From NCBI GenBank assembly GCA_016744975.1, contig JADGDI010000001.1:23531-70961 (forward strand): 47,431 nt of DNA, written 5' to 3'. The notes beneath the pieces are model-generated. The model searched no databases. It had not been told where the DNA came from and was given only the letters and a program-made list of their open reading frames with translations. The translations under genes were made by a program, and so were the position numbers. Of the stretch, positions 10,821 to 40,562 are shown piece by piece. The DNA is from Hyphomicrobiales bacterium (GTDB lineage: Bacteria > Pseudomonadota > Alphaproteobacteria > Rhizobiales > OSC116). Position 1 is the stretch's first letter; each line of letters begins with the position of its first letter.

Positions 10821-10856
10821 ACCATCACTATCCACCAAAACACCCCGCCAAATAAG

Positions 10857-11003
10857 GTACCGCGCAAGCCGTGGGTGGATCAAGATCTCGGTATACCTAA
10901 GGTATAGGTGGGCGCCAAATATACTAGACCACGGCCTAATCAGGGTCAGCTCCCTCGAGAAAAGTAAGGCTCCGGAGAAATATCCCCTCACGCACTGCGC
11001 AGC
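10857..11003 (-). ncRNA. ssrS: 6S RNA (SsrS), alphaproteobacterial type
   Basis: Reverse strand TGCGCAGTGCGTGAGGGGATATTTCTCCGGAGCCTTACTTTTCTCGAGGGAGCTGACCCTGATTAGGCCGTGGTCTAGTATATTTGGCGCCCACCTATACCTTAGGTATACCGAGATCTTGATCCACCCACGGCTTGCGCG. The ends pair partly (TGCGC/GCGCG, GCGTG/CCACG region), there is an internal CCTATACCTTAGGTATA hairpin, and it lies between zapA and fthC as in the conserved zapA-ssrS-ygfA arrangement. Ends approximate. Confidence 0.88.
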
Positions 11004-11065
11004 ATTGTTTATTTATATCAGATTTTTATATAATGAAAGCAAATTTAAACCAAAATAACAATATA

Positions 11066-25908: not shown

Positions 25909-26130
25909 ATGAAAAAAGACATCCACCCAGATTATCACACAATCACAATTCAAATGCTTGACGGCTCTACTTATGAAACCAAGTCTACTTGGGGCAAAGA
26001 AGGCGATACATTGGTTCTTGACGTTGACCCAACAACTCACCCAGCTTGGACAGGCGGCAATGCACAATTAACTGGCCGCGGTGGTCGTCTTGATAAGTTC
26101 AACAAACGCTTCGAAGGTATGTTGGGCTAG
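25909..26130 (+). CDS. rpmE: 50S ribosomal protein L31 (cysteine-less form)
   Basis: [50 protein letters not shown]; no Cys residues. Confidence 0.97.
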
Positions 26131-26166
26131 AATAGACCAGATATGTTGGGCTAGAATAGACCAGAT
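26119..26166 (+). repeat. Perfect 24-bp tandem duplication spanning the rpmE stop codon
   Basis: ATGTTGGGCTAGAATAGACCAGAT at 26119-26142 repeated at 26143-26166. Confidence 0.97.
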
Positions 26167-26180
26167 ATTAATAAATTAAA

Positions 26181-26276: not shown

Positions 26277-26801
26277 TTATTTTTCACCAAATTCCGCTTG
26301 TAATAAATGAAACTGATCGCGTACACCTGCAACTTTTTCAGTTGGTGCAATTTCTTCAGACCAGAATTGCTTATCAATTTTTTGCAATCTAACTTGCAAA
26401 TCAAAGCTCTTGTGGATGAGATCAATCAATTTTACGGGCAATTCATCAACTAGTGTCGATACATCGTCAACCCTGCGTTTTGCCAATTTAATACGATTAC
26501 TATCACGCTTAATATCATCCACGCTAAGTTCGCCATTTTTAAGCGCCCTTTGCAACAATAACCAGCTGGCAATTTGCATTAACCTAGTAGTAAGTCGCAT
26601 ACTTTCAGAGGCATAAGCCAAAGCTTGCGGTCTGCTTAATTCACGTGATTCAACCCGCCCATCACCATCTAGATAATTTGCAGTTTCTTCCACCAACCCC
26701 ATACCTTCATTAAAAAGCGACTGGAATTGATTAGAAGCGGCAAAAAACTCAACAAAATTTACAGTTTCCGATACGCTGTTATTATCACTAGAATAATTCA
26801 T
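26277..26801 (-). CDS. rcdA: DUF1465 family protein, RcdA (regulator of CtrA degradation) homolog
   Basis: FVEFFAASNQFQSLFNEGMGLVEETANYLDGDGRVESRELSRPQALAYASESMRLTTRLMQIASWLLLQRALKNGELS: DUF1465/RcdA pattern. Confidence 0.85.
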   Translation of the reverse strand: MNYSSDNNSVSETVNFVEFFAASNQFQSLFNEGMGLVEETANYLDGDGRVESRELSRPQALAYASESMRLTTRLMQIASWLLLQRALKNGELSVDDIKRDSNRIKLAKRRVDDVSTLVDELPVKLIDLIHKSFDLQVRLQKIDKQFWSEEIAPTEKVAGVRDQFHLLQAEFGEK

Positions 26802-26886: not shown

Positions 26887-26920
26887 TTAACAAATAGTTA
26901 ACATGGTTAACGGTTGTTAA
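26887..26920. promoter_or_regulatory. Candidate CtrA-binding cluster upstream of rcdA
   Basis: TTAA-CAAATAG-TTAA-CATGG-TTAA-CGGTTG-TTAA; the first pair is an exact TTAA-N7-TTAA and the minus strand contains TTAACCAT (26903-26910). Confidence 0.65.
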
Positions 26921-26928
26921 TAGAAACA

Positions 26929-27050
26929 ATAAAAAAAGAGCCGTAATGTTACGGCTCAAAGTTTAAAAGGGAGGCGTAATTTAAGAATGTTAATGAAAAA
27001 AACATTCAAACAATAAATAAGATTGTCATCTATTGCATTACGTAATTTTA
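26929..27050 (-). ncRNA. Candidate trans-acting sRNA with CCUCCC motif and intrinsic terminator (5' end unknown)
   Basis: Minus strand: hairpin GAATGTT...AACATTC (26985-27007), single-stranded TTAAATTACGCCTCCCTTTTAAACTTT, terminator GAGCCGTAACATTACGGCTC-TTTTTTTATTG (26929-26957). No annotated gene upstream on this strand. Confidence 0.5.
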
Positions 27051-27270
27051 ATATATATTAAACTCAATTAAAATTTAGTTAAAATAAGTCTAATACCACC
27101 TTTAACCGCCCTTGTGACATTAAAACCACAGGTTTTATGCTAGAGTTCTAGAACAATTTAAAAGTTCATATCAGATTGAGTTAGGGTTTTCATATTGAAT
27201 TAATAAAATACTATGAGTAAAGTTTAAAACATAAAATTTTTACCCAAACATAAGTTGATTCGGAATTTCT

Positions 27271-28302
27271 ATGAGCAATTATGAAAAACAAAAAACCATG
27301 AGAGCCATTACATTAAAAACCCCTGGTGGCTGGCAAGAACTTGAAATTGCAGAACATACTATTCCATATTTGCGTTCGGGGGAATTACTCATCAAGGTTG
27401 CAGCAGCAGGGGTTAATCGCCCTGATATTGTCCAGAGGCGTGGCCACTACCCCGCCCCCAAAGGCGCATCACAAATTTTAGGGTTAGAGATATCCGGTAC
27501 AGTTATTGCAATTTCTAATAGTGAAAGCCGTTTCAATATAGGGGATAACATCTGCGGCTTGGTGGCAGGCGGCGGTTATGCACAATTTGTGACCATCCAC
27601 CAAGATAATGCATTGCCAATTCCAAAAAATTTAAATTTTATCGAGGCTGCAAGCCTTCCAGAAACTTTTTTCACCGTTTGGAGCAACCTAATTGACCGCG
27701 CAAAATTAGCCAATGGCGAAACTTTCCTTATCCATGGTGGCACCAGCGGCATCGGCATCACTGCCATACAAATCGCCCGTCAATTTTGCAATGCAAAGGT
27801 TTTTGCCACCGCCTCCAACGATAAAAAATGCCAAGCGATCGAACAATTAGGTGCAACAGCCATTAATTATCTAAGTCAAGATTATGTTGAAACCATCATA
27901 AATCAAACCAAACAGACTAGTAAAGGCGCAAATGTGATAATCGATATGGTAGGCGGGGATTATATAGACCGCAACATTCAATGCGCCGCCGAGCAAGGCC
28001 GCATTGTCAATATCGCATTTATGAACGGTGCCATTGCTGAGGTAAATTTTTTACCCGTTATGTTAAAACGCCTAAGCCTAAGCGGTTCAACATTACGCAT
28101 AAGATCCATTGCCGAAAAAGCTGAAATTGCGCAAAATTTAGAAAAACATATTTGGCCATTAATCGAATCAGGTAAAATAAAGCCGATCATTGATAAAGTT
28201 TTTGACCTTCAAGACGCAGGTTTAGCCCATAAATATATGGAAGAAGCCAAGCATATTGGTAAAATTATGCTAAAAGTCAGTGATATTCAAATGAATGCTT
28301 AA
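27271..28302 (+). CDS. NAD(P)H quinone oxidoreductase (zinc-type alcohol dehydrogenase superfamily, PIG3-like)
   Basis: MRAITLKTPGGWQELEIAE, AAAGVNRPDIVQRRGHYPAPKGAS, FLIHGGTSGIGITAIQIARQF. Confidence 0.92.
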   Translation: MSNYEKQKTMRAITLKTPGGWQELEIAEHTIPYLRSGELLIKVAAAGVNRPDIVQRRGHYPAPKGASQILGLEISGTVIAISNSESRFNIGDNICGLVAGGGYAQFVTIHQDNALPIPKNLNFIEAASLPETFFTVWSNLIDRAKLANGETFLIHGGTSGIGITAIQIARQFCNAKVFATASNDKKCQAIEQLGATAINYLSQDYVETIINQTKQTSKGANVIIDMVGGDYIDRNIQCAAEQGRIVNIAFMNGAIAEVNFLPVMLKRLSLSGSTLRIRSIAEKAEIAQNLEKHIWPLIESGKIKPIIDKVFDLQDAGLAHKYMEEAKHIGKIMLKVSDIQMNA

Positions 28303-28404: not shown

Positions 28405-29178
28405 ATGAGCAACGGACCATTAATGCCAAAAGCCACCGCCGTTTGGTTGGTAGATAATACTGCACTAACCTTCGACCAAATTGCCAATTTTTGCAGCCTT
28501 CATCCGCTAGAAGTTAAAGCCATTGCAGATGGTGATGTCGCACAAGGCGTACGCGGCCAAGACCCGGTCCAGTCTGGCGAATTAAGCCGCGCATCTATTG
28601 AAGAAGCTCAAAATGACAGCAGCGTCGAATTGATATTAGCAAAACGCAAATTGGTCATTCCTGAAACCAAAACCCGCAAAGGGCCGCGTTACACGCCTTT
28701 ATCACGCCGTCAAGACAAACCAAGCTCTATCTTATGGTTGGTTAAATTTCACCCAGAACTTGTCGATAGTCAGGTGATGAAACTTGTTGGCACAACCAAA
28801 CCAACCATCAAGGCCATTCGTGAGCGCAGCCATTGGAATATTCAAAACATCAAACCGATTGACCCTGTTGCTCTTGGCCTTTGCAAGCAAATAGAGCTAG
28901 ACGCTGCCGTATCAAAAGCTGCAATAAGAGTCGAAAAGGAACGCGTAAAAGCCATTGAAGCTGGCACTTTATTGCCAACTGAAGAGACAACCGCACCAGC
29001 TTATAAAAAAGATAATGAGCATTTTGCTGAAATTATCGGCAACGTAAACGATGTAGCAGAATCAGAAGAAGCCACAGCAGACAATCTGTTTGATAATATC
29101 CCAACCGCAGAGACAACTGAACAACCTGACTATATTTCTGCTGAAGATGTATTTTCTAATTTTGACAGCGACGATTAG
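28405..29178 (+). CDS. trcR: DUF1013 protein, TrcR-type cell-cycle transcriptional regulator
   Basis: MSNGPLMPKATAVWLVDNTALTFDQIANFCSLHPLEVKAIADGDVAQGVRGQDPVQSGELSR; DUF1013 hallmark. Confidence 0.85.
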   Translation: MSNGPLMPKATAVWLVDNTALTFDQIANFCSLHPLEVKAIADGDVAQGVRGQDPVQSGELSRASIEEAQNDSSVELILAKRKLVIPETKTRKGPRYTPLSRRQDKPSSILWLVKFHPELVDSQVMKLVGTTKPTIKAIRERSHWNIQNIKPIDPVALGLCKQIELDAAVSKAAIRVEKERVKAIEAGTLLPTEETTAPAYKKDNEHFAEIIGNVNDVAESEEATADNLFDNIPTAETTEQPDYISAEDVFSNFDSDD

Positions 29179-34038: not shown

Positions 34039-34087
34039 GCCATATTTAGTCAGTTTAAACTGAACTAAAACAATATATATACTATAT

Positions 34088-34115
34088 AAAGGCTGCTTTG
34101 GCGGCCTTTTTATTT
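34088..34115 (+). terminator. rpsU terminator
   Basis: AAAGGCTGC-TTTG-GCGGCCTTT-TTATTTT. Confidence 0.88.
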
Positions 34116-40547: not shown

Positions 40548-40562
40548 TTAAGCTTTGGTTAA
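40548..40562. promoter_or_regulatory. CtrA-consensus-like site upstream of response regulator
   Basis: TTAA-GCTTTGG-TTAA, an exact TTAA-N7-TTAA, 150 bp before the ATG. Confidence 0.35.

Follow-up and report, generated by a model that had tools for sequence, protein, structure and literature searches.

Introduction

BjrC1505 (RF02356), reportedly first described by Madhugiri et al. in 2012, is an already known family of small RNA (sRNA) that has been catalogued without a role. The other CCUCCCU family of the alphaproteobacteria is alphaR8 (suhB, RF00519), which comprises MmgR of Sinorhizobium meliloti and SisA-D of Caulobacter crescentus and of which SisA, with a core similar to that considered here, represses mRNAs by pairing over a 10-mer (PMC12559287). 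Further likeness is found in CcnA of C. crescentus, a non-coding RNA that is presumed to be activated by CtrA and acts in the cell cycle, and whose authors reported no clear homolog from S. meliloti (PMC8959179), and in EcpR1 and GspR of S. meliloti, two sRNAs with cell-cycle mRNAs (dnaA, gcrA, ctrA) as their targets. Compared by description only, CcnA differs from the RNA considered here in its length (182 nt) and its location in the replication origin. EcpR1 and GspR differ in their genomic places (EcpR1 lies between divK-pleD and rpmG) and in their pairing motifs, and the literature searched states no CtrA-box drive for either. In that literature, most of it outside subscription journals, CcnA was the only CtrA-linked RNA found, and no link of an rcdA-adjacent sRNA to CtrA was found.

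Here, an RNA gene is examined that lies in a stretch of 47,431 nucleotides from a member of the Hyphomicrobiales (hereafter the window). The explanation favored as a whole, and judged likely from sequence comparison, is that this locus encodes an independent, CtrA-driven, trans-acting sRNA that is a divergent BjrC1505 ortholog upstream of rcdA.

The candidate locus and its transcript

A total of 469 gene-free bases separate rcdA from a divergently oriented quinone oxidoreductase-like gene (QOR; Table 1). Within them, a preliminary description made from the sequence alone had proposed an unannotated minus-strand sRNA with a hairpin, an exposed CCUCCC motif, and a strong terminator lacking any annotated minus-strand gene to end. 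The terminator was confirmed (stem 26957-26938 of eight pairs, five of them G-C, a loop of four, then T7; minus strand only), no gene of that strand is annotated between QOR and rcdA, and the proposed GAATGTT/AACATTC hairpin was located as SL2. By itself, a terminator of this pattern is not significant in the window, where one was found versus 0.9 expected in shuffled sequence. The minus strand of positions 26929-27050 has a fold energy of -29.2 kcal/mol (z = -6.6) that none of 200 shuffles equaled, and the predicted transcript reaches z = -7.4 relative to shuffled sequence. From 5' to 3', the predicted fold consists of a closing stem (P1) around two hairpins, 17 unpaired nucleotides, and the terminator. 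The stretch that had been described as unpaired is so over these 17 nt, while its UUACG half pairs with the 5' end of the RNA to form P1. Comparison with relatives places the start of transcription near position 27043, allowing the 5' end and promoter, which the preliminary description had left unresolved, to be deduced; the interval that it gave is nearly that of the transcript.

Table 1. Features of the rcdA-QOR intergenic region and its flanking genes, in window coordinates.
Feature	Position	Strand	Basis
rcdA (Pfam DUF1465, 169.3 bits), adaptor for CtrA proteolysis	26277-26801	minus	Pfam profile match
CtrA box TTAACTATTTGTTAA of the rcdA promoter, separate and beyond the terminator	26887-26901	minus	TTAACCA[TC]TTGTTAA in congeners, same place
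sRNA, ~114 nt	26930-27043	minus	start predicted from -10 (+/- 2 nt), end predicted from terminator
Intrinsic terminator and U7 tract	26931-26957	minus	stem 26957-26938 and conservation
Single-stranded anti-Shine-Dalgarno stretch CCUCCCUUUUAAACUUU, 17 nt	26958-26974	minus	fold and alignment
P1 closing stem, 3' arm AUUACG	26975-26980	minus	genus alignment and fold
Hairpin SL2	26985-27007	minus	GAAUGUU...AACAUUC in window; GAGUGG...CCACUC in order; alignments and fold
Hairpin SL1	27010-27036	minus	A+U-rich in window; AUCCAG...CUGGAU in order; alignments and fold
P1 closing stem, 5' arm CGUAAU	27037-27042	minus	genus alignment (two pairs changed on both sides) and fold
-10 element TATATT, 12 nt past the box	27050-27055	minus	TATAGT in five congeners; order consensus TAT.A.T at same offset
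CtrA box TTAACTAAATTTTAA (TTAA-N7-TTAA), -35 region of the sRNA promoter	27068-27082	minus	conservation
Quinone oxidoreductase-like gene QOR, divergent, syntenic flank	27271-28302	plus	Pfam profile match and synteny

Assignment to the BjrC1505 family

At gathering score, no Rfam family matched the candidate locus. With a relaxed threshold, two families did so, namely suhB/MmgR (RF00519) with 25.6 bits against a cut-off of 41 and BjrC1505 (RF02356) with 23.3 bits against a cut-off of 50, the latter over positions 26931-27069; the five congeners score 22.8-32.0 bits with RF02356. Since the gathering score is not reached, the element is treated as a divergent ortholog (variant) rather than as an Rfam-qualified member. 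A covariance model restricted to the transcript (model R1), derived from 45 members with the genus of the window excluded, matched the window at 26931-27027 (36.8 bits, E=1.9e-7) and each of the five congeners (35.9-46.9 bits); the next match in the window, at 34049-34114 on the plus strand (14.5 bits, E=0.086), is probably due to chance. Searches with blastn recovered the element in other families of the order (genomes G007, G010, G016, G020, G021, G029, G036, G041, G046, G054, and G060) at loci that coincide with RF02356 matches. RcdA and/or QOR flanked 30 of 30 order-level BjrC1505 loci versus none of 30 suhB loci. The blastn overlap, the synteny, and the genus-free model together place the element with BjrC1505 rather than with suhB/MmgR, and there is very little doubt that it is a divergent, positional ortholog of BjrC1505.

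An alphaR8 sRNA of the MmgR/SisA type shares the CCUCCCU anti-Shine-Dalgarno core and the intrinsic terminator with the element and, in raw score, RF00519 lies slightly above RF02356. Such an identity is nevertheless very unlikely, since none of the 30 alphaR8 loci has RcdA, QOR, or a CtrA box at the corresponding place and many genomes of the order hold over-threshold matches to each of the two families at different places. Moreover, alphaR8 is linked to an FGase gene, whereas the direct neighbors of the element are rcdA and QOR, and in place of the conserved alphaR8 10-mer UUUCCUCCCU (PMC12559287) the window has ACGCCUCCCU. The alphaR8 RNAs are also shorter (77 nt) and differ in their 5' half. 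In the genus of the window (G000-G005), there is no over-threshold RF00519 copy, and the best RF00519 score falls, where this can be identified, on the present element or its ortholog; the genus may have lost MmgR, although these assemblies are incomplete.

Comparison of the window RNA with BjrC1505 reveals a common site upstream of rcdA on the same strand, a common order of SL1, SL2, CUCCCU, and terminator, and a common CtrA box. The differences lie in SL2, which in the window is A+U-rich with a U-rich loop and no longer has the CUCCUG loop found in most members (the G+C-rich SL2 with this loop is absent from some members of the order as well), in the presence of P1 instead of the small CCUCCC-displaying hairpin of two folded BjrC1505 members, and in a transcript that is ~20 nt longer. 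The sRNA proposed in the preliminary description is almost certainly a real RNA gene, one that belongs to a family already in Rfam rather than to a new one.

Covariation across relatives, which had been suggested as a check, supports the minus-strand helices. Among 45 order-level members, 97.6% of helix cells are paired, 10 of 18 pairs carry changes on both sides, and none of 500 shuffles matched the alignment in the share of paired cells, in double changes, or in covariation score. No helix is better conserved than the terminator, whose stem cells are 99.4% paired in the same members, and all 52 aligned sequences share an identical UCCCU core. The genus alignment, of only six members, supports a longer genus-specific fold that includes P1. 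The strand, the layout, and the exposed CCUCCC that had been proposed are thus supported by deep conservation, covariation, and a conserved minus-strand promoter, and the sRNA gene is almost certainly real.

Use of the opposite strand, with GGGAGG serving as the ribosome site of a micro-ORF, can be given next to no credence. The peptide MLMKKTFKQ can be read in the window, as the preliminary description had pointed out, but the distance from GGGAG to the shared ATG is too great, the peptides of the six congeners are divergent, share only 'MKK', and vary in length (7 to 29 residues), and the minus strand is indicated by promoter, terminator, and covariation alike.

Conservation of the locus beside rcdA

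Synteny was also examined in reverse, starting from the RcdA protein alone and taking the best 80 named loci, a sample biased to one order. In 75 of these 80 loci, model R1 matched with at least 40 bits at a site upstream of rcdA and in the same orientation, and one further locus (L184) had a weak match of 20.8 bits. Loci with the RNA include those of Ensifer/Sinorhizobium, Rhizobium, Brucella, Mesorhizobium, Roseibium, Methylobacterium, and Methylocystis. When 14 named loci were scanned with Rfam, nine passed the RF02356 cut-off; in the Rhizobiaceae orthologs of Ensifer L134, Sinorhizobium L160, and Rhizobium L169 and L207 (about 2626-2805; core UUUCUCCCUGUUUUACCUUGAGAGCCGC), no Rfam family was detected at gathering score. 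A class-wide search yielded further matches in other orders, many of them with RcdA, QOR, or the CtrA box, with the weak end of these matches being untrustworthy. It should be noted that the loci are related and that the counts do not represent independent events, the suhB loci of the same set of genomes being the best available control.

The neighborhood is cell-cycle themed. An open reading frame matching the Pfam family TrcR, 'transcriptional cell cycle regulator' (201.9 bits; 28405-29178, plus strand), lies two genes from the sRNA, and in several relatives the TrcR gene takes the place of QOR as direct neighbor.

A conserved CtrA box upstream of the sRNA

The CtrA box at the -35 region of the sRNA, which the preliminary description missed, recurs in all five congeners at the same place as TTAACTA[AT][AT]TTTTAA. 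In the A+T-rich 47 kb of the window, TTAA-N7-TTAA is not rare (three found versus 2.6 expected), so that its presence there is no proof of CtrA involvement by itself and the case for CtrA rests on conservation. The third and last perfect copy in the window is at 40548-40562.

For 68 order-level loci, the box was scored at a distance of 80-96 bases before the CCTCCC core, with the expectation taken from the rest of the same loci. At least seven of the eight box letters were present in 59 of 68 family loci versus 0.44 expected, and the box was perfect in 30 of 68 (about 0 expected); scored identically, it was absent from all 30 suhB (MmgR) control loci. Of 76 rows scored for the RcdA loci, 75 carry the box, which is perfect in 53; the weak-match locus L184 is among the 75, and the sole failure (L182) is a locus that lacks an upstream RNA match. 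All 74 strong R1 matches upstream of rcdA with readable upstream DNA carry the box. In nearly all loci, 38-45 bases (typically ~39 nt) separate the box from the first hairpin, and the column consensus reads gTTAACnntnnaTTAAgcnTTcc....tAt.a.t, with the first hairpin beginning ~7 bases past the -10.

In a relative whose start sites have been mapped, the same motif was attributed to CtrA (PMC12403871). CtrA is present in the genome of the window, where it is approximately 80% identical to the Caulobacter query sequence. Of 31 genomes searched, G013 alone among those at least 90% complete lacks a strong CtrA match, and it also lacks BjrC1505 and suhB matches. Control of the sRNA by CtrA is considered likely.

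The first ~45 positions of the RF02356 model hold TTAA-N7-TTAA followed by a -10-like TATTAC. Because Rfam models these 45 nt as RNA, within a model of 140 nt, the sRNA could be real and the TTAA-N7-TTAA a feature of a longer transcript in which CtrA has no role. This is quite improbable, as the 5' helices of the Rfam model have 48% of their cells paired in 55 members versus 44% when shuffled and 97.6% for the trimmed helices, and the box has a fixed offset to the -10 and matches the CtrA-assigned motif (PMC12403871). The 5' part of the model, pairing hardly better than shuffled sequence, behaves as promoter DNA rather than as structured RNA. This suggests that promoter DNA forms part of the RF02356 model and thereby hides members in Rhizobiaceae and in the genus of the window.

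The RNA gene, its family, its synteny, and the CtrA-type box with its conservation are established at the level of sequence, and we infer that the sRNA is transcribed in this organism.

Relation to rcdA

The preliminary description had mentioned a CtrA cluster at rcdA, which is present as a separate TTAA-N7-TTAA beyond the terminator, together with a TATAAT-like -10. Among named loci, this rcdA box has at least seven of eight letters in 37 of 59 and is perfect mostly in Rhizobiaceae; given its lesser regularity elsewhere, conservation is stronger for the box of the sRNA. Both the sRNA and rcdA are probably activated by CtrA.

In S. meliloti, ChIP-seq has shown binding of CtrA to the rcdA promoter region, and depletion of CtrA was without effect on rcdA (PMC4433202). 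Several start sites have been reported for rcdA in each of the three agrobacterial lineages, with CtrA sites that are unusually far upstream, further than in Caulobacter (PMC10469942). A separate CtrA-driven RNA upstream of rcdA would fit both the S. meliloti and the agrobacterial data, and binding of CtrA in S. meliloti without a change in rcdA mRNA would be expected, and explained, if one CtrA site serves the sRNA.

Since upstream start sites, along with CtrA motifs, are attributed to rcdA itself in studies of Rhizobiaceae, and since the element is on the same strand with 129 nt between its U-tract and the rcdA start, it could instead be a 5' leader of rcdA, that is, an attenuator on a read-through transcript that feeds the gene. 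This is improbable, given that rcdA has its own CtrA box and -10 beyond the terminator, that the terminator is the best conserved helix of the element, and that the invariant part is the anti-Shine-Dalgarno stretch rather than an alternative antiterminator. Some read-through from the terminator of an independent sRNA into rcdA is possible.

Proposed mode of action and candidate targets

In the proposed mechanism, phosphorylated CtrA would bind the box at -35 and RNA polymerase would start near 27043, giving an RNA of ~114 nt with a closed 5' domain, the exposed CCUCCCUUUUAAACUUU, and a terminator that would separate the sRNA from rcdA. The exposed stretch would pair with AGGGAG-type Shine-Dalgarno sequences and lower translation of those mRNAs, probably with involvement of Hfq, as far as can be judged from the anti-Shine-Dalgarno core and the U-tract that are visible. 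With a CtrA box at rcdA as well, a common signal would give rise to the sRNA and to the adaptor for the destruction of CtrA itself. The complementarity of CUCCCU to AGGGAG and the precedent of SisA lead to translational repression in trans as the presumed activity, and silencing of this kind, by analogy, seems reasonably likely; alphaR8 and the window RNA probably work in the same way.

No conserved mRNA target was identified. In the genome of the window, AGGGAG-N4-10-ATG occurs 55 times versus 19 times in a reversed control. Among the loci read, those of adenylate kinase and serine hydroxymethyltransferase give the strongest duplexes. Genes of transporter substrate-binding proteins are preceded by such a start site in at least six cases, which recalls AbcR-type control. 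These lists of start sites are leads only, as strong Shine-Dalgarno sites are expected before transporter substrate-binding genes. Across 101 relatives, ACAGGGAGGC-ATG occurs above control, and such perfect-complement start sites recur in the order, with no obvious common gene among the matches listed. The ctrA mRNA was considered as a target and rejected, its Shine-Dalgarno sequence being AAGGGG with at most 7-8 pairs in the window, which are not conserved.

There is a fair likelihood that the locus represents a conserved RNA output of CtrA across Hyphomicrobiales, and probably neighboring orders, in which a single cell-cycle signal yields an anti-Shine-Dalgarno silencer RNA and a CtrA-destroying adaptor. 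The order-wide CtrA box gives BjrC1505 a testable place in the best-studied bacterial cell-cycle circuit, and as a CtrA-linked RNA it would be far more widespread than CcnA.

Other features of the window

The only match in the window at Rfam gathering level is a 6S RNA at 10853-11008 on the minus strand (55.2 bits). In addition, a direct repeat of ~22 bp, ATGTTGGGCTAGAATAGACCAG, was noticed by eye at 26119-26170 on the plus strand, where it extends across the end of the ribosomal protein L31 gene.
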